From NCBI GenBank assembly GCA_000403335.2, contig KE159631.1:245229-309228 (forward strand): a stretch of DNA of 64,000 nt, in the 5' to 3' direction. The notes beneath the pieces were generated by a model. It had not been told where the DNA came from. It ran no database searches and worked only from the letters and a program-made list of their open reading frames with translations. Every line of letters starts with the position of its first letter. The first letter of the stretch is position 1. The DNA is from Lachnospiraceae bacterium MD335. Lineage in GTDB: Bacteria; Bacillota; Clostridia; Lachnospirales; Lachnospiraceae. Shown one piece after another: positions 1 to 12,700 of this stretch. Both the position numbers and the translations under genes were made by a program.

Positions 1-50
1 TGGCAATCTTGAAAAATATCTGTCAAAGAAAGCTGTTTGTATGGTATCAT
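1..50 (-). CDS. IS transposase, 5' end only (partial)
   Basis: Reading leftwards from an ATG whose first base is 50, the frame stays open to the window edge and gives MIPYKQLSLTDIFQDC. An AAAGGAG ribosome binding site lies about 14 bases upstream (complement of 65..71). The N-terminus resembles my memory of a large DDE transposase family of clostridial insertion sequences (IS1182-like group) that begin with a YKQLSLxDIF-type motif. Only 16 codons are visible, so the family is inferred. The element's terminal inverted repeat should lie somewhere in 60..150 but cannot be defined from one end. Confidence 0.5.
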   Translation of the reverse strand, partial: MIPYKQLSLTDIFQDC

Positions 51-59
51 AGGTATCAG

Positions 60-132
60 AATAACTCCTTTCTTGGATGGTGGTTTATAGTTTTTGACAA
101 CTTTATTATACCATATCCGGTGAGGAGTTATT
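60..132. repeat. 10-bp inverted repeat at the IS end
   Basis: The arms AATAACTCCT (60..69) and AGGAGTTATT (123..132) are perfectly complementary. The left arm contains the transposase ribosome binding site on the minus strand, so read-through transcripts entering the element could fold and hide it. That is a known way of limiting transposition from external promoters, but here it is inference from position only. Confidence 0.45.
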
Positions 133-152
133 TTATTTTAGAAACAAAAAAT

Positions 153-189
153 GCCGTATTTATGCGGCTTATGGCGTTTCGCAAACGCC
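153..189 (+). promoter_or_regulatory. Two hairpins in the leader of the poly-glycine peptide gene
   Basis: GCCGTA (153..158) can pair with TGCGGC (163..168) with one G-U pair. GGCGTTT (173..179) pairs perfectly with AAACGCC (183..189) around a CGC loop. Both lie directly upstream of the SD of the peptide gene at 227. No T-run follows, so they look like RNA structure or stability elements rather than terminators. A clear promoter was not identified in the 100 bases upstream. Confidence 0.4.
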
Positions 190-226
190 TATTTAACAGA
201 TTCCAATAGAGAGGAGGTGTAATGTA

Positions 227-376
227 ATGTCCCAAGAGCGTAACATTCTTGCAGTTTTCGATGAAGAAACCACAAAATTAACTGCTGAATATCATATAGA
301 AGAAACATATGATGACTGCCCAACCGCGATGTCAGGCGGCGGCGGCGGCGGTGGCGGTGGTGGCGGCGGCCGCTGA
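227..376 (+). CDS. 49-residue precursor-like peptide ending in twelve glycines
   Basis: A textbook AGGAGGT (212..218) lies eight bases before ATG 227. The peptide starts MSQERNILAVFDEET and has nine acidic residues in the first thirty. A short stretch DDCPTAMS (29..36) follows, then Gly37-Gly48 and a final Arg49. The glycines use nine GGC and three GGT codons in an AT-rich region, and they are uninterrupted except by synonymous change, which argues for coding rather than slippage. A minimal ATG-TAA (222..227) overlaps the start by one base. A 12-bp terminator begins seven bases after the stop. Acidic leader plus glycine tail is the layout of a ribosomally made, processed peptide precursor. 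No family is recognised, and no modifying enzyme or exporter is visible. Alternatives are a bacteriocin-like peptide or a small structural protein. Confidence 0.7.
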   Translation: MSQERNILAVFDEETTKLTAEYHIEETYDDCPTAMSGGGGGGGGGGGGR

Positions 377-382
377 CTATCA

Positions 383-418
383 GGGCACAGTAAATATAGG
401 TATACTTTTACTGTGCCC
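383..418. terminator. 12-bp terminator hairpin, probably bidirectional
   Basis: GGGCACAGTAAA (383..394) and TTTACTGTGCCC (407..418) pair perfectly. The hairpin sits between the convergent poly-glycine peptide gene and the pentapeptide-repeat gene (stop at 423), so it can serve both. Confidence 0.75.
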
Positions 419-422
419 CGTC

Positions 423-1883
423 TTATTTATAGTATCGAAGTTCTGTTGGCAAATCATTAATGGTTTTGATAATATAAGAAATATTTTTAATATCATTTGG
501 AAGCAGTATGCTGTGCGATTCTTGTTGTTTTTGTTGTTCTGCTTTTCGTTTTTCGAGTTCTAATTTTTTTAATGCCACTTCCAGTTTACCACGTTTAATT
601 TCCTGCCGATTTTTAAGAATATTTTGTATTTTTTCTATTATGTTGCATGACTTATTAAAAAATAATTCAAGTGCCATAAATACTAAAATTAATGTATATA
701 TATTGTCCGATACTAATAGTGTAAGATCTATTGGCGAATTATGTCTGACAGTTATGTGATTATTTGATTCAGGCGCATACAGCCCAAGTGTGCTATTTAT
801 AACATTAAATGTTTCTGTCAATTTATCTGCATCACTATAATCAAAATTTGTTTTTATATTTATTTCGATAATATCTCTATTAAAAGGACAATCAATAAGT
901 AAACTTTTCGCAATAGAGAGTTCGTTAAGATAATTGCGATATTCAACATATTGCAACTGTTGAACATTGACGTTGCTCTCCAAAAAATCATAAAACGATT
1001 TTAACTGCTGTAAATTAAAAAATTTATTCACAGAAGCAAATTTACAAAGATGCCGTATCAGACCAAAATCTTTTTTCCTGCAAGCATATGCTAAACCATT
1101 TAATATTGTACAATATGTGTTTTCTATTTCTCCATCAAAAGCATAGATATTAGCCAGTGCCAAAAAATTATTTTCGTAATAAAAAACAGGTTTAAGTAAT
1201 CTGATATCCTCGATATACTTTTCGCTTTTTACCTTATAATTAGAACTTGCCGGTTTAAAGAAAACTGTTTTCTTCCTGATTATTTGTTCAAATCCATTTA
1301 CTAAATTCAATATTCCAAAAAAGGGCAGAGTGACATTTTCAAAATTTGAATCAATAATCTCTGAAAAATCCAATGTAGTTAAAGATAAATCTATATCTCT
1401 AAAAGAGCATTTAATAAAAGTCGAATTTGCAAAATCACATTGGTTCATTTCAGAAGTTTCTAATGTACTCTTCCGAAAGTAACACTCCCGAAAAGAGGTT
1501 CCGTCTAGTATGCTTTTGCCAAAAACTGCACCTGTGAAATCAGAAAAATCATATCTGCTTGAGTACGAATTGATTTTCAGACTGCTGTCTGAAAAATCAG
1601 AGTATATAAAATTTGCATTTACAAAACTACAGTCTGTGAAATTAGAACTTTTAAAAATAGAATTATTTCCAATTGTTCCCTCAAAAGTTACATTTTTAAA
1701 CCTGCATTTATAATATGCACCATTCCGCATTAAAGAGCCTTTAAAGGTTTCATCATAATTCTGATTAGTCCCCTCGAATGAATTTGATGCATCTCTCAAA
1801 GGTTCTAACGGAACAATTGTTTTCAAAAAATCGGCAGCGGATGCTATTTCCAGCCTAGAAAAAACTTCTCCTAATTGTTTCAT
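423..1883 (-). CDS. Pentapeptide-repeat protein with C-terminal membrane/coiled-coil region
   Basis: 486 residues. Residues about 38-185 are a degenerate pentapeptide-repeat array with F or L at the centre of each unit (for example SNFTDCSFVNANFIYSDFSD, then CDFANSTFIKCSF), which predicts a right-handed quadrilateral beta helix. A helical region follows without a recognised domain. Next is a hydrophobic stretch (IYTLILVFMALELFF, about 395-410), then a Lys/Glu/Gln-rich coiled coil (about 425-460). Some pentapeptide proteins (Qnr, McbG, MfpA) mimic DNA and protect or inhibit gyrase; most have unknown roles. The gene converges on the poly-glycine peptide gene. A plausible promoter (TTGATG, 17-bp spacer, TTATGG on the minus strand) lies just upstream. 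The repeat call is firm; the function is not known. Confidence 0.8.
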   Translation of the reverse strand: MKQLGEVFSRLEIASAADFLKTIVPLEPLRDASNSFEGTNQNYDETFKGSLMRNGAYYKCRFKNVTFEGTIGNNSIFKSSNFTDCSFVNANFIYSDFSDSSLKINSYSSRYDFSDFTGAVFGKSILDGTSFRECYFRKSTLETSEMNQCDFANSTFIKCSFRDIDLSLTTLDFSEIIDSNFENVTLPFFGILNLVNGFEQIIRKKTVFFKPASSNYKVKSEKYIEDIRLLKPVFYYENNFLALANIYAFDGEIENTYCTILNGLAYACRKKDFGLIRHLCKFASVNKFFNLQQLKSFYDFLESNVNVQQLQYVEYRNYLNELSIAKSLLIDCPFNRDIIEINIKTNFDYSDADKLTETFNVINSTLGLYAPESNNHITVRHNSPIDLTLLVSDNIYTLILVFMALELFFNKSCNIIEKIQNILKNRQEIKRGKLEVALKKLELEKRKAEQQKQQESHSILLPNDIKNISYIIKTINDLPTELRYYK

Positions 1884-2192
1884 GATTTTTATGTACCTTT
1901 CTAATCTAATCCATCAAACATCCATAAATTAATCATACAATTACCATCAAAATTAACGGATAACACTTGATTATCTATTACCAACACCCAATCACCACAC
2001 CTATAAATTTATGGAATATAATAAGATGATCACAGATCAAACCAATTACTGACTTATGGAGCACAAATGAAATTTCTGAGATCTGTTACGCTTGAAAAGA
2101 ACAAATGTTTGTTATTGCTGTAATCGTTTGGATATTCCAAGTCATTTTTAAAGCAACATGTAAGGCATCTCCAATCTGAGAACAGATATAAA
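1884..2192. other. AT-rich intergenic stretch without a recognised gene
   Basis: No reading frame with a credible start and ribosome binding site was seen on either strand. It must contain the promoter of the minus-strand pentapeptide gene near its left end. Confidence 0.5.
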
Positions 2193-2227
2193 GAGCAGCA
2201 CTATTCCCAAAACCAAAAGTGCTGCTC
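2193..2227 (-). terminator. Terminator after the tyrosine recombinase
   Basis: GAGCAGCACT (2193..2202) pairs perfectly with AGTGCTGCTC (2218..2227). The stem ends six bases beyond the recombinase stop and is followed, in the minus direction, by TTTATAT. Confidence 0.75.
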
Positions 2228-2232
2228 AAAAA

Positions 2233-3156
2233 TTATATATGAAACCCGTTTCGGGGATGCTTATTAGCCAAAATATCCCTCTGCTTCGCCACCGTTACGT
2301 GCGTATAAATCTCCGTAATATTAATCGAACTATGTCCCAGCATCTCCTGAATATACCGAATATCCACATCTGCCTCAAGCAGACAAGTCGCAAACGTATG
2401 ACGAAACATATGCGGCGTAATATGCAAATCAATCGCAGCAAGTGAGGTATACTTATTAATCATTCTGCGAACCGCCTGATCTGACATTGCTTTTCCGTCC
2501 TGATTAGCGAAAAAATAGTTGCATTTCCCGACTTCGGCAGAAAATTCTTCTCGATACTCCTCCAAAACACGAATAACATTTCTGTTGCAAATCTGAATCC
2601 GCCGTTCCTTATCTCCTTTCCCATAAATCAAAATTGTTCCGTCATATAAATTCACATTTTTGTTCTGCAAAGCGCAAAGCTCTGATATTCGCATACCTGT
2701 CGCAAATAAAAGTTCCGAAACAGCCGCGTCTCGCAAAGCATTCCTCTTCTGATAAGCTGTCTTTGCATTTTGCTGCTGCATATAAATTGCAGAAAGAAAA
2801 GCTTCAACAGTATGTAACGGTATTGTTTTCGGAAGGATAACAGGCTCTCGAAAACGTACCCGTATTTTATTAAAAGGATTTTTTTCAATCAAGTCTTTAT
2901 ATTCAAGATAGTGAAAAAATGCTTTCAAAGACGCAATTTTCCGCTTAGCGGTCTTAGGTTTATACAAATTATGCAGGCGGGCAATATAGGTTTCGATCAT
3001 ATCTGTTGTAATGAGGGCAATTTCAGTGGCGGAAACTTGTTCTGAGAATTGCCTCAAATCAATCTGATAGGCTTTCAGGGTCTTTTCATCCAGGCGTTTT
3101 TGCGCAGTACAGTATTCCAAATAGTTTTTCATGTGTGTTTGTAAATTGTTCATCAT
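2233..3156 (-). CDS. Tyrosine recombinase / phage-type integrase
   Basis: 307 residues, the usual XerC/XerD-like length. An N-terminal SAM-like core-binding domain (about 10-90) precedes the catalytic domain. Catalytic motifs are present: TGMRISEL with the first Arg, YGKGDKERR with the Lys, HMFRHTFA (HxxR), LGHSSINITEIY with the His, and the nucleophilic Tyr in IYTHV. The protein cuts and rejoins DNA at a specific site, as an integrase of a mobile island or an inverter of nearby DNA. It is divergent from hsdM and at the edge of the defence region. Such recombinases sometimes invert hsdS segments, but no second hsdS copy is visible here, so integration of the island is the simpler reading. No target repeats could be located by eye. 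Confidence 0.9.
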   Translation of the reverse strand: MMNNLQTHMKNYLEYCTAQKRLDEKTLKAYQIDLRQFSEQVSATEIALITTDMIETYIARLHNLYKPKTAKRKIASLKAFFHYLEYKDLIEKNPFNKIRVRFREPVILPKTIPLHTVEAFLSAIYMQQQNAKTAYQKRNALRDAAVSELLFATGMRISELCALQNKNVNLYDGTILIYGKGDKERRIQICNRNVIRVLEEYREEFSAEVGKCNYFFANQDGKAMSDQAVRRMINKYTSLAAIDLHITPHMFRHTFATCLLEADVDIRYIQEMLGHSSINITEIYTHVTVAKQRDILANKHPRNGFHI

Positions 3157-3223
3157 AAAATCTCCTTGTCCTAGTATTTAAAATATATGGTACATGGATT
3201 TTTGTAATAATGCACTCCTTGGT

Positions 3224-3475
3224 ATGGAAATTCAATTAAATAATAGAAAACAGGTATCGGCAGAAGCATCAGTAAGCTTTTGCTTACCAATGATGGGAGC
3301 AGTATAATTTCTGTTTATATTTGTGGCATGGAGAAACGCTGCTGAATCGTTTAAACAACGCACAGAATGGAGAGCTTCATTGCCTACCGATAACGGAAAA
3401 AATGATGCGATGAAATTAGGAAATGCATTTCAAAATATAAGGCTGAGCGCGGCATTATTCTTGAATCAGCAATGA
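3224..3475 (+). pseudogene. Interrupted small membrane-protein-like frame
   Basis: ATG 3224 opens MEIQLNNRKQVSAEASVS and a hydrophobic stretch that is cut by TAA (3305 region). The same frame then resumes without shift as FLFIFVAWRNAAESFKQRTE and runs to TGA at 3473..3475. Ignoring the stop gives about 83 residues with one membrane segment split by it. No good ribosome binding site is seen. The gap from 3157 to 3860 holds this frame, a second open stretch without a good start (3484..3669, ending DEQIRSLQK) and the hsdM promoters. This looks like decayed cargo next to the recombinase. Confidence 0.3.
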
Positions 3476-3680
3476 TAGTATAAAGGAAATTGGAGAGAAA
3501 ATTAAATGAAACAGACACGGGTATTCCGCCCGTCAGTTTTACGCGTGCTCAATGCTATCTTAACTGCAAAAAAGGTTTTGAAAATAAAAGAAACGCGAAC
3601 CAAACAAAATTCAGACGAGAATGTAAAAAAACGGTGACAGACGAACAAATACGCAGTCTGCAAAAATGACACCGCTGTTT

Positions 3681-3710
3681 TTGGCATCGTTTTTTGCTTT
3701 ATGATATAAT
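3681..3710 (+). promoter_or_regulatory. Sigma-A promoter upstream of hsdM
   Basis: TTGGCA (3681..3686) and a perfect TATAAT (3705..3710) are separated by 18 bases. They lie about 150 bases before the hsdM start. Confidence 0.6.
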
Positions 3711-3760
3711 GAGCGCAAGAGAGTATAGTGTACCTGTTCATTTTGTGAACGGCGAATATA

Positions 3761-3860: not shown

Positions 3861-5729
3861 ATGGATAATAAAAGTATTAAAAAACTGGAAAATGATTTAT
3901 GGGAGTCTGCCGATTTGCTTAGAGCCGGTTCAAAGTTGACTTCCAATCAATACTGCATGCCGGTACTTGGTTTGCTGTTTTTAAGATATGCCTACAGTAG
4001 ATTCAAAATGGTGGAAGGGGAAATATTAAATAACAGACCTGTGAGAAATGGGATTAAGATGCCGGTTGAGGCAAAGGATTTTGTAGCGAAGAGCGCTTTG
4101 TATCTTCCTCAAATGGCGCAGTATCATTGGCTTGTAAACTTACCTGAGAATGTGGCTTCACTTGGTCTTGAAAACGTTTCCGGTCAGATTATGGGGAGTC
4201 TTGGCGAAGTTGTAAACAATTCGATGGAGCTTGTGGAACGGCAGAGCACACAGCTTACAGGCGTACTTCCCAAAAGCTATACGGATTTCTCAGATGATTT
4301 ACTTGGAGAGCTACTTCGGATATTTAATAACAATGCTCTTGACGAGGTGGGCGGCGACGTAATTGGTCGTATCTATGAGTATTTCCTGAATAAATTTGCA
4401 AAAAATATCGCGTCAGATGATGGTGTATTCTTTACGCCGAAATCATTGGTAAAAATGATTGTGAATATCATAGAGCCTAGAAGTGGTGTTCTCCTAGATC
4501 CTGCCTGTGGATCAGGTGGTATGTTTGTACAGACAGGCGACTTTGTGAATGAATCCGGTTTACAGGCGAACAGCAGTATGACATTTTATGGACAGGAGAA
4601 AGTAGAATATAATGCACAGCTTTGCCTTATGAATATGGCGGTACATGGATTAAGCGGAGTCATTAAGTCAGGAGATGAAGCAAATAGTTTTTATCATGAC
4701 GCACATAACTTAGAAGGCTGTTGTGATTATGTTATGGCAAATCCTCCTTTTAATGTGGATAAAGTAAAAGCAGAGTCCGCCACGAATGCGGGCAGACTTC
4801 CTTTTGGCGTACCGAGAGAAAACAAGAACAAAGAAATCGGGAATGCAAATTATCTTTGGATTTCTTATTTTTATGCTTACTTAAATAATGCAGGAAGAGC
4901 AGGGTTTGTTATGGCATCTTCCGCTACAGATAGTCAGGGAAGTGATAGAGACATCAGGGAAAAACTTGTGAAAACAAATCATGTGGATGTAATGATCAGT
5001 GTCGGAAATAACTTTTTTTACACCAAAAGTTTACCCTGCTCGTTATGGTTCTTTGATAAAGGAAAAGCGGAAGAATTAAAGGATAAAATTCTTTTTATAG
5101 ACGCAAGAAATTATTATACAGTGGCAGACCGTACGCTCAATGAGTGGAATGAGTGGCAGCTCAAAAACATGAATGCGATTGTTCGGCTTTATAGAGGTGA
5201 GACAGATAAGTATAAAGCACTGCTTGAAGAGTATCAATCTGTTATGAAAGAATTGATTGACGAGATTGGTGATGATGTTCTTAATGTCATCATGGATGAT
5301 GTATTCACAGGTGGATTTGAAGCAGCTAAGAAGTATTTGAAAACACTTAGAGAGTCTGCAAAGAAAGAGATCGAAGTATGTGACAGGAAGGAAAAGAAGA
5401 AGTTACAAACCTCATGGGATGAAAAGATTGCATCTGTAGAAGAAATTGCAGAAGTAGCAAAGGAAGCGCAATGGCTTTATAGTAAGTTTGGTGAGGGAAA
5501 GTATGAAGATATTCCCGGGCTTTGCAGAATTGCAGATATGGAAACGGTAGAAAGCAAAGGATGGTCTCTTACTCCGGGGGCATATGTAGGAGTTGCACCA
5601 ACGGAGGATGATGGTATAGATTTTGCGAAAAGAATGAAAGAGATACATACAGAACTATTAAAATTGCAGGCAGAAAGTAATGAATTGATGGATACTATCT
5701 CACAAAATATGAAGGAGATGGGACTATGA
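3861..5729 (+). CDS. hsdM: Type I restriction-modification methyltransferase subunit
   Basis: 622 residues. An N-terminal helical domain (LENDLWESADLLRAGSKL, HsdM_N) precedes an N6-adenine methyltransferase fold. The SAM-binding motif DPACGSGGMF is at about 212 and the catalytic motif NPPFN at about 293. A long C-terminal helical tail follows. It methylates adenine in the sequence chosen by HsdS and is also part of the restriction complex. It overlaps hsdS by four bases (ATGA), so the two are translationally coupled. Length and motifs are complete, so the protein is probably active. Confidence 0.97.
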   Translation: MDNKSIKKLENDLWESADLLRAGSKLTSNQYCMPVLGLLFLRYAYSRFKMVEGEILNNRPVRNGIKMPVEAKDFVAKSALYLPQMAQYHWLVNLPENVASLGLENVSGQIMGSLGEVVNNSMELVERQSTQLTGVLPKSYTDFSDDLLGELLRIFNNNALDEVGGDVIGRIYEYFLNKFAKNIASDDGVFFTPKSLVKMIVNIIEPRSGVLLDPACGSGGMFVQTGDFVNESGLQANSSMTFYGQEKVEYNAQLCLMNMAVHGLSGVIKSGDEANSFYHDAHNLEGCCDYVMANPPFNVDKVKAESATNAGRLPFGVPRENKNKEIGNANYLWISYFYAYLNNAGRAGFVMASSATDSQGSDRDIREKLVKTNHVDVMISVGNNFFYTKSLPCSLWFFDKGKAEELKDKILFIDARNYYTVADRTLNEWNEWQLKNMNAIVRLYRGETDKYKALLEEYQSVMKELIDEIGDDVLNVIMDDVFTGGFEAAKKYLKTLRESAKKEIEVCDRKEKKKLQTSWDEKIASVEEIAEVAKEAQWLYSKFGEGKYEDIPGLCRIADMETVESKGWSLTPGAYVGVAPTEDDGIDFAKRMKEIHTELLKLQAESNELMDTISQNMKEMGL

Positions 5730-6961
5730 GCTGGAAAGAGGTATGTTTAGGTGATGTAATATCAACCAAGAAAGGCTTTGCTTTTAAAAGCAGTAAATAT
5801 GTACCTCAAGGAATTCCTATTGTTCGAGTATCTGACTTTACAATGGATAGTATTTCTGATGATGATTTAAGATTTTACCCACAGGAAGAAAGAGAACAGT
5901 ATAAAGAGTTTGAATTGAGAGAGAAAGATATTATTGTTCAGACGGTTGGTTCGTGGCAAAATAATCCTGCATCTGTTGTGGGAAAGGTAGTACGTGTACC
6001 ACATTTTCTAGACAGAGCATTGTTGAACCAAAATGCGGTGAAGATTATTCCAAATAAAGAAATAGATAGAGACTATATTTTTTACCGATTAAGGACAGAT
6101 GAATTTAAAGGACATATATTAGGTGAGGCAAGAGGGGCAGCTAATCAAGCGAGTATTACTCTTGAAACTATAAAATCTTTTAGATTTTTTTTGCCGGATC
6201 ATAATACACAGATAAAAATTGGACAGATACTTTCGGCATATGATAATTTAATCAAAAATAACCAAAAGCAGATTAAATTACTAGAGGAGGCGGCACAGCG
6301 TCTTTATAAAGAATGGTTTGTTAAATTGAGGTTTCCAAATTATGAGAAATGTATTATTGTTGATGGTTTGCCTAAAGGGTGGAAGATGGTACATATATTC
6401 GATGTATGTGAAACAATAGGAGGTGGTACTCCATCAACAAAGGTAAATGAATATTATCAAGATGGTGAAATTAGATGGGTTACACCAACTGATATTACAA
6501 GAAATAAGAGTTTAATATTGTTGGACTCGGAGAAGAAAATTACAAAATTAGGGCTAAAGAAAAGTTCAGCCAAAATGGTTCCACCATATACTATTTTGAT
6601 GACAAGCAGAGCAAGCATTGGCTATTTTGCTATATGTGAACATAAGGTTTGTACAAATCAAGGCATTATTTCATGCATTCCTTATGAAGAGAATGTTAGA
6701 TACTTTCTTTTGTATAATTTAATGAACCGTGTTGAAGAAATACGACAAAAAGCAAGCGGCTCAACATTTTTAGAAATTAGTAAAAAATCATTTGGAGAAT
6801 TGGAAATTGTTTTACCAGCTAGTAATGTACTTGAAATGTTTAATAGGGTTAATATTCTGTATATTAAGCAGATAGAAACATTTACAAAAAAAATAAACAA
6901 ATTAATGCAGGCAAGAGAAAGGTTATTACCGAAACTATTGAATGGGGAAATAGAAATTTAA
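5726..6961 (+). CDS. hsdS: Type I restriction-modification specificity subunit
   Basis: 411 residues with two target-recognition domains (about 1-165 and 215-385). Each is followed by a conserved helix: LLEEAAQRLYKEWFVKLRF near 190-205 and LMQARERLLPKLLNGEIEI at the C-terminus. It sets the bipartite DNA target shared by methylation and cleavage. The full two-domain length argues against truncation. The ATG overlaps the hsdM stop. The target sequence cannot be read from the protein. Confidence 0.96.
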   Translation: MSWKEVCLGDVISTKKGFAFKSSKYVPQGIPIVRVSDFTMDSISDDDLRFYPQEEREQYKEFELREKDIIVQTVGSWQNNPASVVGKVVRVPHFLDRALLNQNAVKIIPNKEIDRDYIFYRLRTDEFKGHILGEARGAANQASITLETIKSFRFFLPDHNTQIKIGQILSAYDNLIKNNQKQIKLLEEAAQRLYKEWFVKLRFPNYEKCIIVDGLPKGWKMVHIFDVCETIGGGTPSTKVNEYYQDGEIRWVTPTDITRNKSLILLDSEKKITKLGLKKSSAKMVPPYTILMTSRASIGYFAICEHKVCTNQGIISCIPYEENVRYFLLYNLMNRVEEIRQKASGSTFLEISKKSFGELEIVLPASNVLEMFNRVNILYIKQIETFTKKINKLMQARERLLPKLLNGEIEI

Positions 6962-6981
6962 AAAGGAGAAACGAAGGAACA

Positions 6982-8676
6982 ATGGGAAAGAATTTATCAA
7001 ATAATCAGCTTTTATTAAAAGAATGCATTCAGCAAGAATGTGTAGAGAGTGGTTTATATGAAAATGTAGATTTGTATTTTGAATACTTTGCATCAGCACA
7101 GGTTTTGAAGGATTATGATTTAAGTGATGATGAAATATTAAGCGGGATAATTGGTGGCAGTAATGATGGTGGATGTGATGGAATGTATATATTTCTTAAT
7201 AATGATCTTTTGATACAGGACCAAATTGCAAATTTGAGTGCACCAAAAGGAGCAGTGTTGAGTTTAATAATTGTTCAAGCTAAAAATACAACTGGTTTTG
7301 GTGAAAATGCAATAATGAAATGGAAAACAGTATCAAGTAATTTGTTAAGTATATCGAGTGATTTGAATAGTTTTTCAGACCGCTATAATGAACAAGTTAT
7401 AGATTCATTTATGATATTTAGGGATGCCATTACTAAATTGGTGCGTTCTCAGATTAAAGTGCAAATTCATTACTATTATGTAACTATAGCAAATGATAGG
7501 CATCCAAATGTAGACAGTCAAGCAGATGAGTTAAAGGATATTGTGAAACAGATGTATCCCTCGGCAAAGGTGGATGTTACTTTTGTTGGCGCGGATAGAT
7601 TAATGGAACTATATAATGCTGATACGGAAGTGTGTGCAAATTTAGAGTTTGCAGAAAATCCAATAGCAAGAGGTAAAAACACAGAATATGTTTCTTTAAT
7701 AAATTTGGGCACCTATTACAAGTTTATTACAGATGAAAGTAATAAGTTGAGAAGTAGTTTTTTTGAAGCTAACGTTCGAGATTATCAAGGAAAGAATTCG
7801 GTAAATACGTGTATAGCTGAAAGTCTTGCTTCAAACAATGGTGAAGATTTTTGGTGGCTTAATAATGGGATTACTATACTGGCAGAAAAAGTAATACCTG
7901 TTACAAATAAAGAATTATCAATTATTAATCCAGAGGTAGTAAATGGGCTTCAAACATCTACAGAAATATATAATTATTATTCTGAAAATTTGGGATTACT
8001 TGAGTCGGAAAATAGAAATGTTTTGATTCGTGTGATAGTGCCGGCTTCTGAGGAATCACGAGATAATATTATTTTTGCAACTAATAATCAAACTAATATA
8101 CCAAAGTCTTCATTGAGAGTGACAGACACAATTCATTTGCAGATTGAAATGTATTTTAAGAGTCGTGGTTTATACTATGATAGAAGAAAGAATTACTATA
8201 AAAACCAAAAGAAGAAAGCTGCTGATATTGTTGGAGTATCTTTTTTGGCACAATGCCTGATTAGTATATTTTTGAGAAAGCCTGATTTTGCTAGGGCAAG
8301 ACCTTCAACATTATTGACTGATGATGAAACGTATAAAAAGCTATATGAGTCAAATGCTGACCTAGAGGTATACTATAAAACAGCATTGTTGGGGAAGAAA
8401 GTACAGACTAATCTTGCAAAAACATCAGAAATGACGTCTGCTGAAAGAAATGATGTTTTGTATTATTTACTTTATGGTGTTTCGGCTAAAATTTTCTGTA
8501 AAAAGGATATTACATTTTTAGATGTTAAGAGTATGAATATGGATATTGTGACTGATGATTTGATAAATGAGTTAAAAATTGTAATTTATGCAAAATATAA
8601 AGAACTTGGTGGAAATGGAAGAGTTGCTAAAAGTGATACGTTTATCACTGAAATCGATAACATATTAGGATTATAG
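6982..8676 (+). CDS. AIPR-family protein embedded in the Type I RM locus
   Basis: 564 residues starting MGKNLSNNQLLLKECI after an AAAGGAG site, 20 bases after hsdS. Residues 55-100 look like a PD-(D/E)xK nuclease core: GGSNDGGCDGMYIF with an Asp at about 66, then a hydrophobic strand ending QAKN at about 98. The middle region (DFWWLNNGITILA, then NPEVVNGLQTS) matches the AIPR (abortive infection phage resistance) family. AIPR proteins are often found inside or beside Type I RM operons and act in phage defence; the mechanism is poorly known. Position and spacing suggest co-expression with hsdMS. The AIPR label is fairly sure; nuclease activity is inferred from the motif. Confidence 0.85.
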   Translation: MGKNLSNNQLLLKECIQQECVESGLYENVDLYFEYFASAQVLKDYDLSDDEILSGIIGGSNDGGCDGMYIFLNNDLLIQDQIANLSAPKGAVLSLIIVQAKNTTGFGENAIMKWKTVSSNLLSISSDLNSFSDRYNEQVIDSFMIFRDAITKLVRSQIKVQIHYYYVTIANDRHPNVDSQADELKDIVKQMYPSAKVDVTFVGADRLMELYNADTEVCANLEFAENPIARGKNTEYVSLINLGTYYKFITDESNKLRSSFFEANVRDYQGKNSVNTCIAESLASNNGEDFWWLNNGITILAEKVIPVTNKELSIINPEVVNGLQTSTEIYNYYSENLGLLESENRNVLIRVIVPASEESRDNIIFATNNQTNIPKSSLRVTDTIHLQIEMYFKSRGLYYDRRKNYYKNQKKKAADIVGVSFLAQCLISIFLRKPDFARARPSTLLTDDETYKKLYESNADLEVYYKTALLGKKVQTNLAKTSEMTSAERNDVLYYLLYGVSAKIFCKKDITFLDVKSMNMDIVTDDLINELKIVIYAKYKELGGNGRVAKSDTFITEIDNILGL

Positions 8677-9787: not shown

Positions 9788-12700
9788 ATGAGTTACGATT
9801 ATTCAGAAAATATATTAGTCCAAGAAAGTGTAGGACACCTTCTTGAAGAACTCGGCTGGAGAGTCGAGCTTGCTTATCATACAGAAGTTCTCGGTGACAA
9901 CGGTTCCTTTGGCAGAAAATCCTACAAGGACATTCTTTTGGTGCGCTATTTTAAAGAGGCTCTTAAAAGGCTTAATCCTTGGATAACGCCAGAACTTGCA
10001 GAGGACGCGCGAAAAACCTTTGAACAGCATCTGTCTACCTCCTCCTTAATGCAGATAAACGAAGAAAAGTATTTTATGATTCGTGATGGTATTCCGGTAA
10101 AGGTTAAAAATCCAAACGGAAAAATAGAAGAAAAGAAAGCGGCTATCATAGATTTTACCAATCCTGACAATAATGAGTTCCTTGCCATTAAAGAATTAAA
10201 AATACATGGAGACCTGTATCGCAGGCGTACAGACATCGTAGGATTTGTAAACGGTATCCCGCTTTTATTTGTGGAACTGAAAAAGAATACGGTAGATGTG
10301 CAGGATGCGTATACGAATAATTACACGGACTATTTGGATACAATCCCCCATTTGTTTTATTATAATGCGTTTTTGATTCTTTCCAACGGACTCCAGTCAA
10401 AAGTAGGTACACTTGCAAGTAAGTATGAATTTTTTCATGAGTGGAAGAGACTGAATGAGCAGGAAACAGGCAGTGTTGCATTGGAAACCATGCTTCGGGG
10501 AATCTGCAATAGAGCAAACTTCCTTGACTTATTAGAAAACTTTATTCTGTACGACCATTCCGGCGGAACCACAGTCAAGATACTTGCGAGGAATCATCAG
10601 TATCTTGGCGTGAATGAAGTAGTAAAGGCTTATGAGGCGCGTAAACTTAACAATGGTAAGCTCGGTGTATTTTGGCATACGCAGGGCTCCGGTAAAAGCT
10701 ATTCTATGGTATTTCTTTCTCAGAAAATACGCAGAAAGTTTGCTGGTTCGCCTACGATTGTGATACTCACCGACAGAGACGAGCTGAATACGCAGATTAG
10801 CGATACATTTGAAAACTGTGGTTTGTTGGGAAAAACAAAAGCTTCAGAGTTTATTGCCACAAGCGGTGATAATCTGATTAAAAAATTAGAGGGTAATCCA
10901 AGCTTTATCTTTACCCTGATTCAGAAATTCAATAGGAAAGTGGAAAAGCCGATTATTCCAGACCACGACATCATTATTATGTCGGATGAGGCGCACAGAA
11001 GCCACTATGGTATATTTGCAGATAATATGGCAGACCTGCTTCCGACAGCGTCGAAAATCGGTTTTACAGGAACTCCGCTTCTATCAAATGACAACATTAC
11101 AGAGCGTACTTTCGGCGGTTATATTTCTATTTATGATTTTAAACGTGCAGTAGAGGATAGAGCTACAGTACCTCTTTATTATGAAAATAGAGGCGAGAGG
11201 ATACTGGATATTCACAATCCCAATATTACAGATAGAATTCTTGATGCGATGGAAGCGGCGGACCTTGATGCAGAGCAAAGTGAAAAGATGGAACGCGAGT
11301 TCGAAAAAGAAATTCATCTTTTAACGGCAGAGCCAAGACTTCGTTCGATTGCCAAAGATTTTGTGTCACATTATTCCGACCTTTGGACAAGCGGTAAAGC
11401 AATGTTTGTATGTCTGAATAAGGTAACGTGCGTTCGTATGTACAATATGGTGCAGGAGTATTGGCAGGAAGAAATCGAACGATTAAAGATAAAACGAAAA
11501 ACGGTTACACAGCAGGAAGCTCAGGAGCTGGACCGTAAAATCAAGTGGATGACGGATACAGAAATGGCTGTGGTAATTTCACAGGAGCAGAACGAAATCC
11601 AAATATTTAAGAAATGGCATCTTGATATAAAATCGCATCGTGAGAAGATGGAAAAACGAGAGCTTGATAAAGAATTCAAGGATAGTGACAATCCTTTACG
11701 GATAGTTTTTGTCTGTGCAATGTGGCTGACAGGGTTTGATGTTAAGTGCATGTCATGCTTGTATTTAGACAAGCCTTTGAAAGCGCATACGTTGATGCAG
11801 ACGATTGCAAGGGCAAATCGTGTAGCAGAAGGCAAGAATAACGGACTTATTATTGACTATATCGGTATTGTAAAAGCACTTCGTAAAGCGCTTGCCGATT
11901 ATACGGCAAGTGTAGGTGTTAGAAATACCGATCCGACAGTCGATAAGGGTGAATTGATAGAGAGGGTATTAGAAGTTATAGCTGCTGCAATTGCGTTTTT
12001 GCACAGCAAAGATTTTAATTTAAATAATCTTGTAGCGGCTAAGGACTTTGAAAAACTTGCATTGTTACAAGAAGCGGCGAATGTTGTTTCTGAAAGCAGG
12101 GAGAGCATAAAGCAGTTTAGGACCTATGGAAATGAGTTAAGCCGTATGATGAAGTATCTCAACAGACATGATATTTCGTATGAGGACAGACAAAGGAAAG
12201 ATGCTATTATTGCGATATATAGTGAGCTGAAGAAAAAGAAGAAGCATGTGGATACGGTTGATTTGATGGTAGAAATTAATGGTATTATGGGCGAATATAT
12301 TTTGATGGAACCAACATCTCAAGACAGGAGTATGGAAAAGCGTTTTGACATCAGTAAGATTGATTTTGATATACTTCGAAGAGAGTTTGCTATGGTAAAA
12401 AAGAAAAATCTAATGTTCAAGGAGCTTGATGAGCTTATTCGAATGCGCTTGGACAAAATGCTCAGGGAAAATCCGAAACGTGTAGACTATTATGAGCGTT
12501 ATCAGAAGATTATTGAAGAATACAATCAAGACCAGGACAGAGCGAATATTGAAAAGGTATTTATGGAATTGATGGATTTGGCAAGTTCCATGAATCAGGA
12601 GGAACAGAGATATGTTCGGGAAGGCTTCACAAGTGATGAGGAATTATCCGTGTATGATATGCTTTTTGACGAAAACCTATCAAAGGAAGATATCAAGAAG

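Follow-up and report, generated by a model that had tools for sequence, protein, structure and literature searches.

A split operon for a glycine-tailed peptide

Near the left end of a 64,000-nt stretch of the Lachnospiraceae bacterium MD335 genome (the window) lies a short open reading frame (ORF; 227–376, + strand) for a 49-residue glycine-tailed peptide, MSQERNILAVFDEETTKLTAEYHIEETYDDCPTAMS-G12-R, which we read as a precursor from the frame itself and from an orthologue in a Blautia genome (locus L019, 8033–8200). Its 36-residue leader is acidic and holds a single cysteine, and a perfect AGGAGGT ribosome binding site (212–218, + strand) stands eight bases before the ATG; an initial annotation of the window had described all of these features correctly. 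The peptide gene is convergent with a gene for a pentapeptide-repeat protein (PRP), beyond which lie a long bounding repeat and a tyrosine recombinase gene. A gene for a radical S-adenosylmethionine (SAM) enzyme is found just left of the window.

Between the peptide and PRP genes is a hairpin (383–418) with a perfect 12-bp stem (383–394 paired with 407–418) and a folding energy of −20.7 kcal/mol (z −4.3). The annotation had called it a terminator of the peptide gene. The stem is as claimed, but it starts six rather than seven bases after the peptide stop, has no clean T-run and is absent from the output of a terminator scan of window 180–2300. Since it also ends a few bases short of the stop of the PRP gene (423), it looks like a terminator-like element common to the two convergent genes. 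Hairpins likewise lie 3′ of the peptide gene in L019 and in three further loci described below (L022, L023 and L024). Nothing in the window reached an Rfam gathering score.

Comparison with Blautia confirms that this tiny ORF is a real gene. The leaders are identical at 23 of 36 residues, with a dN of 0.18 and a dS of about 1.6 (Nei–Gojobori, one unpaired L019 codon dropped; dS is near saturation), and the adjoining radical SAM genes of the same two genomes gave a dN of 0.12 and a dS of 0.92. The leader is under selection, in the same regime as the enzyme beside it. Selection on the protein had been proposed from the mixture of glycine codons, which is as described: nine GGC and three GGT among the twelve, whereas the neighbouring genes for the radical SAM enzyme and the PRP (GC 0.32 and 0.30, respectively) use GGA most often for glycine. 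The leader has been kept while the number of glycines varies, from 12 in the window to 17 in Blautia, and close relatives show neither stops nor frameshifts. Within the genus, tblastn with the leader matched 7 of 38 genomes at E ≤ 1, strongly only in its own genome, which holds two copies; the six other matches (E 0.013–0.78) lie inside long reading frames of 250–542 aa and were dismissed as chance. Matches of the whole peptide to a YxzE-like bacteriocin family (Pfam, E 0.0064) and to MtsC (NCBIfam, 0.22) fell below cut-off, and the leader alone matched nothing, so we regard both as an effect of the glycine tail.

The annotation had also taken the peptide gene for a complete one-gene unit, and here it was mistaken: the upstream DNA is severed by an insertion sequence (IS) and a scaffold gap, and the peptide is the second gene of an operon. 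Nor had it linked the peptide with the convergent PRP gene. The window starts immediately after a 90-N gap in a 424,905-bp contig, and positions 1–189 (− strand) are one end of an IS1182-type element that carries an internal deletion and whose remainder lies left of the gap, at 9928–11017 of the wider locus of this genome (L004; window 1–1978 is L004 13230–15207). A more complete copy (about 1.83 kb) with the same ends, elsewhere in the genome (G000:C1:1200103-1201928), fixes the boundaries of the element; the copy at the peptide locus is without the internal stretch (junction at query 1023/1024). Directly before the peptide ribosome binding site is a 15-bp target-site duplication, tatttaacagattcc (window 190–204, L004 13419–13433). 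Its exact partner (L004 11018–11032) sits where the radical SAM gene ends at its 3′ side, and the peptide must therefore have followed the enzyme gene before the insertion. In Blautia, which has no IS here, the enzyme (6001–8031) indeed directly precedes the peptide, with 1 nt between stop and ATG. The IS1182-type element has evidently split an enzyme–peptide operon; we reject a stand-alone peptide gene and attribute the isolation of the peptide to the insertion. A scan of L004 9690–10250 found no promoter directed from the IS end toward the peptide. Because the element parts the peptide from the enzyme's promoter, expression in this strain may be impaired, and the insertion probably lowers it.

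The radical SAM enzyme and its distribution

The annotation's guess that maturation genes might lie to the left of the IS was right for this enzyme, a 670-residue protein 77% identical to its Blautia counterpart. Pfam identified it as Radical_SAM, and all six members that we scanned matched the NCBIfam models for PhpK (TIGR04479, the best match, 1.3e-18 to 1.9e-24) and for RiPP (ribosomally synthesized and post-translationally modified peptide) C-methyltransferases (TIGR03975). At residues of about 180–270 there are also alignments with the HpnJ and TIGR04190 models, and Foldseek placed cobalamin enzymes (TsrM, MgmA, AprD4, OxsB and CysS) at the head of its hits. The canonical radical SAM cluster motif is CX3CX2C; here it is CX4CX2C (Cys 299, 304 and 307), invariant in seven enzyme sequences. 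The C-terminal 95 residues are predicted to form strands followed by three helices (pLDDT about 75–85). A profile of this region compared with 22 PqqD sequences gave an hhalign probability of 88% (81–89% in leave-one-out runs), against at most 4.5% for seven control segments; of the 23 rows available the comparison used 22, without a single short locus, and the hits L049 and L052 stood outside the list. We read this C-terminus as a domain resembling PqqD and the RiPP recognition element (RRE). Given that domain, and an enzyme that resembles cobalamin-type RiPP methyltransferases, we consider the peptide most likely to be the precursor of a RiPP. A processed precursor, as the annotation had suggested, is also the reading best suited to the conserved leader and the radical SAM neighbour.

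When 84,980 species genomes were searched with an alignment of three enzymes, 149 pattern matches were returned and seven loci confirmed, which makes eight with the window genome; two of them, L023 and L024, were taken to be the finds G492 and G421 of our genome samples. In 6 of the 8 (the window genome, L019, L020, L022, L023 and L024) a short glycine-rich ORF lies directly downstream of the enzyme gene, with tails of G12R, G17R, G17CSGR, broken glycine runs ending in NK or KTK, and a short GGGSGG. L025 stops within the enzyme gene. Few genomes have the enzyme: across the genus, family, order and class samples, and at the thresholds applied, its only clear members were the window genome's own, G421 and G492. 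Matches numbered 2 of 38 in the genus (1e-10; its own and a partial match of 28% in G014), 2 of 397 in the family and 2 of 392 in the order (both at 1e-25, its own included in each) and 1 of 391 in the class (1e-60, its own). The family of G492 (1/48) and the genus of G421 (1/9) yielded only those genomes themselves. Plasmid searches returned generic radical SAM proteins, none covering over 80% of the query, and no PRP; phage and viral-contig searches gave no matches.

At L021 (74–9982) the same radical SAM family sits within a larger cluster of two hydrolase-like genes (assigned by eye) and genes for a phosphotriesterase-like protein, a SPASM radical SAM protein, an AMP ligase, a glycosyltransferase and an ABC transporter; L025, from a Bacteroidales bin, begins like this cluster.

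Convergent cassettes between inverted repeats

The PRP (423–1883, − strand) has 486 residues, with a helical and alpha/beta C-terminal region after its pentapeptide beta-helix. Pfam and Foldseek support the helix; its Foldseek matches include AlbG, QnrB1 and MfpA with low TM-scores, and SV2 luminal domains scored equally well. The protein falls below the curated Qnr/MfpA cut-offs, and the BFVD structure library returned only pentapeptide-type matches, which gave no lead. A PRP gene is convergent with the enzyme–peptide pair in 5 of the 6 peptide loci, the exception being L020, and in all five of these cassettes each outer gene has one copy of a perfect inverted repeat (71, 53, 23, 22 and 32 bp) close upstream. 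The longest common stretches (95, 53, 23, 22 and 32 bp, the first being the 71-bp repeat of the window genome plus 24 bp of flank) compare with maxima of 13, 15, 12, 14 and 12 in 200 shuffles of each cassette. In the window the repeat occupies 1908–1978, with its core GATAATCAAGTGTTATC at 1959–1975; its partner in inverse orientation, which precedes the radical SAM gene, is at L004 13045–13115 in the scaffold as assembled, and a second is at L004 8139–8209. The cassettes share this core, GATAA-N7-TTATC: 16 of its 17 exact occurrences in 146,627 bases from 12 loci fall within the repeats. It is imperfect in L015 and in one repeat of L018, and missing from the repeats of L073 (cut by contig ends) and L078. 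Beside the window cassette is a gene for a 307-residue tyrosine recombinase (2233–3156, − strand; PF00589, E 1.6e-41), presumably an invertase. Recombinases adjoin 4 of the 5 peptide cassettes, those of L019, L024 and L022 being 74%, 56% and 49% identical to the window's; none was seen in 18 kb around the L023 cassette.

The PRP and its repeats extend to a wider set of loci. A PRP profile matched 10 of 299 genomes of the family at E ≤ 1e-12, its own included; five of the others were full-length and four were weak (about 1e-13, frames of 200–234 aa). Among genomes of the order it matched 6 of 315 at 1e-20, three of them known (its own, G492 and G097) and three new. In the five full-length family finds, which are sister cassettes (L069, L070, L071, L072 and L073), the PRP is convergent with an ATP-grasp–radical SAM fusion protein of about 765 aa, between terminal inverted repeats of 21–112 bp that are 96–100% identical. 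Of the three new loci of the order, L080, from another family, has an ATP-grasp-only partner (4906–5997) in a cassette bounded by 51-bp repeats. In L078 the PRP stands alone (2049–3745) within 37-bp inverted repeats, and L079 ends inside the PRP. Over 13 PRP loci we counted bounding repeats in 12, a convergent enzyme partner in 11 and an adjacent recombinase in 9. The recombinases of L071 and L072 were assigned by reading the sequence, and for the seven later loci the repeats were judged by BLAST E-value (1.4e-4 to 2e-59), not by shuffling.

Several features suggest that these segments may invert in living cells. The recombinase adjoins the PRP in the window, L019, L022, L078 and L079, and adjoins the partner gene in L024, L071, L072 and L080. 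Three assemblies are broken at or near the repeats, as a flipping segment would lead one to expect: one contig end of G421 is inside a repeat, as are both ends of a 4377-bp contig of G229 that consists entirely of the cassette, and the scaffold gap of the window genome is 24 bp beyond a repeat. Left of that gap follow an identical, inverted 1978-bp copy of the peptide and PRP genes (L004 8139–10116, the counterpart of L004 13230–15207), then the IS1182-type element and then the radical SAM gene. One junction links the left flank with the PRP side, and 24 bp of the same flank meet the enzyme side elsewhere, at the contig end past the enzyme-side repeat. A mixture of orientations would give just this, and the duplicate would then be a scaffold artefact, as it probably is. 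That it is instead a genuine second copy of the peptide and PRP genes seems to us improbable. The duplicate is present as assembled and its copies are 100% identical, but the gap falls inside it, the far left flank appears at that contig end, and two other assemblies likewise end in such repeats.

On the enzyme side of L019 an inward promoter matches at 11 of 12 positions and carries a TG (none of 200 shuffles was equally good), on the PRP side of L018 another matches at 10 of 12, and a third lies on the PRP side of L072 (p 0.04). Total promoter counts were near the shuffle means.

Proposed mechanism and alternative readings

We think it probable that the peptide is a RiPP-like precursor and the enzyme beyond the IS its cobalamin-type radical SAM maturase, the two being carried in a recombinase-inverted cassette in which they alternate with the PRP. 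The RRE-like domain of the enzyme would hold the acidic leader while the active site works on the glycine tail, where the modified residues would lie. Radicals attack the alpha C–H bonds of glycine more readily than any others in a peptide, and from this bond strength and the enzyme class our best guess is C-methylation of some glycines at the alpha carbon. The neighbouring tyrosine recombinase would invert the cassette at its repeats, so that transcription entering from one flank, from a promoter presumably outside the cassette, would serve either the peptide pathway or the PRP. The PRP might protect a target such as gyrase, a lead taken from its fold and from known clusters, or otherwise counteract the product.

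A number of observations weigh against this proposal. All of the NCBIfam matches of the enzyme miss their curated cut-offs by a wide margin; for the two members shown, TIGR04479 scores were 66.6 and 75.3 bits against 600, and TIGR03975 scores 28.5 and 31.8 bits against 281.85. Even at E 10, Pfam detected no B12-binding domain in three N-terminal segments and no PqqD domain in four C-terminal segments. The AlphaFold2 model, built from six sequences, is weak (mean pLDDT 68, core poorly modelled), and the structures that Foldseek ranked first for it, TsrM, MgmA, AprD4, OxsB and CysS, have low TM-scores of about 0.2. L021 has the enzyme and no glycine-rich ORF within the locus examined, and at L020 (3373–8339) the enzyme and its G17-CSGR peptide lie downstream of a leucine-rich-repeat protein without a PRP or bounding repeats, so neither pairing is obligate. 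The L022 tail is very short. As for the annotation's mention of export genes, the ORFs listed for the cassettes include no exporter or dedicated peptidase, the rest of the genome not having been searched. The assembled window genome does not show the enzyme side joined to the right flank. Strong inward promoters were found in only 2 of 17 flanks (shuffle p ≤ 0.04), the other 15 being unremarkable, in a scoring that omitted the bases nearest the repeats and so missed the L018 site. Finally, were the PRP the only immunity, producers would be without it in the ON state.

We considered three other readings of the cassette. The glycine-tailed peptide might itself be the end product, unmodified and aggregation-prone or regulatory, with the enzyme acting on another substrate and merely co-transcribed. 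The enzyme of L021 and the ATP-grasp–radical SAM sister cassettes would suit such a view, since the former sits in its larger cluster without a glycine-rich ORF within the locus examined and the latter have no glycine-rich precursor (the only two glycine-rich frames, in L069, are unrelated); yet the recurrence of that ORF behind the enzyme in six of eight loci, the resemblance of the enzyme's C-terminus to a leader-binding domain and the similar constraint on leader and enzyme make it quite unlikely. A phase-variable anti-phage or toxin–antidote system, in which the enzyme, together with the peptide where there is one, would produce a compound that is toxic or antiviral inside the cell and the PRP would serve as its antidote or as another effector, fits the company that some cassettes keep. 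HsdM, HsdS and an AbiU/AIPR protein are encoded beside the window cassette (3861–8676), SIR2-like and ThsA-macro-like genes, a Thoeris-like pair, lie directly beside that of L069 (460–3091), and the cassettes show no exporter. We find this reading rather unlikely, as PADLOC matches neither PRP, enzyme nor recombinase, and the cassette of L019 is beside apparent housekeeping genes (judged by eye) and that of L022 beside a conjugative coupling gene.

McbG of the microcin B17 system is a pentapeptide-repeat protein, and the PRP could by analogy be a dedicated immunity protein against a gyrase-targeting peptide. Its beta-helix matches the AlbG, QnrB1 and MfpA structures, PRPs are described as self-resistance genes in clusters for topoisomerase poisons (PMC9231227), and in the microcin B17 operon mcbE–G encode export and immunity (PMC3622597). 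The fold is common to many PRPs, however, the TM-scores are low and matched by those of SV2 luminal domains, and AlbG, QnrB1 and MfpA lack the long C-terminal region. Polyglycine is a spacer in microcin B17 (PMC3622597) and a tail here, and cells under such a switch would alternate between producing the peptide and making the PRP. We therefore regard this role as doubtful.

Among the closest known systems are the B12-dependent radical SAM RiPP maturases (TIGR03975; TsrM, MgmA), with sequence matches across the radical SAM core, an adjacent precursor ORF and the top places in Foldseek; the present enzymes differ in their scores far below cut-off, the CX4CX2C motif, the RRE-like domain and the polyglycine tail of their peptide. 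The PhpK family of radical SAM P-methyltransferases, the best NCBIfam match though below cut-off, belongs to phosphinate biosynthesis, whereas here the context is a peptide gene. Microcin B17 is likewise a RiPP with a polyglycine run and an immunity gene in its cluster (PMC3622597), but is made by an azole-forming synthetase and not a radical SAM enzyme. The recombinase-driven invertons of gut bacteria likewise have a switchable segment framed by inverted repeats, with a tyrosine recombinase next to them; the segment here differs in carrying two whole convergent transcription units. We know of no invertible cassette for microcin B17. We found no report of an inverton built in this way, and PMC11892184 does not mention pentapeptide, radical, Blautia or tyrosine recombinase. 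A study of poly-cyclopropylglycine (PMC9062424) concerns a ribosomal peptide in which a radical SAM enzyme produces an unusual glycine-like polymer. Our search of the open-licence literature, which left subscription papers and preprint servers outside its scope, found no description of the present system. The poly-cyclopropylglycine pathway reportedly starts from other residues and uses another enzyme class.

If the proposed pathway is correct, it would add a RiPP-like family with a core of consecutive glycines, the simplest residue and the one most open to radical chemistry, and with an enzyme that could be tested in a laboratory host. DNA inversion would set production against the PRP, a phase variation between producers and non-producers that could be tested by counting orientations. 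More tentatively, and with somewhat less than even confidence, we suggest that the Lachnospirales hold a family of flipped cassettes with a radical SAM biosynthetic unit (the cobalamin-type enzyme with its polyglycine precursor, or the ATP-grasp–radical SAM fusion) and a dedicated PRP as alternative outputs; in the version with the peptide, a glycine-homopolymer core converted at its alpha carbons would define a new class of RiPP. The combination of PRP and repeats would offer a search handle for cassettes hidden by short-ORF filters and single-orientation assemblies.

Further enzyme genes adjoin two of the PRP loci. In L071 a nitroreductase gene and a second radical SAM gene are in the same operon as the fusion protein. 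The separate enzyme cluster beside the lone PRP of L078 (3770–9000) includes a gene that appears, by eye, akin to this second radical SAM gene, together with carrier-protein-like and AMP-ligase-like genes read in the same way.
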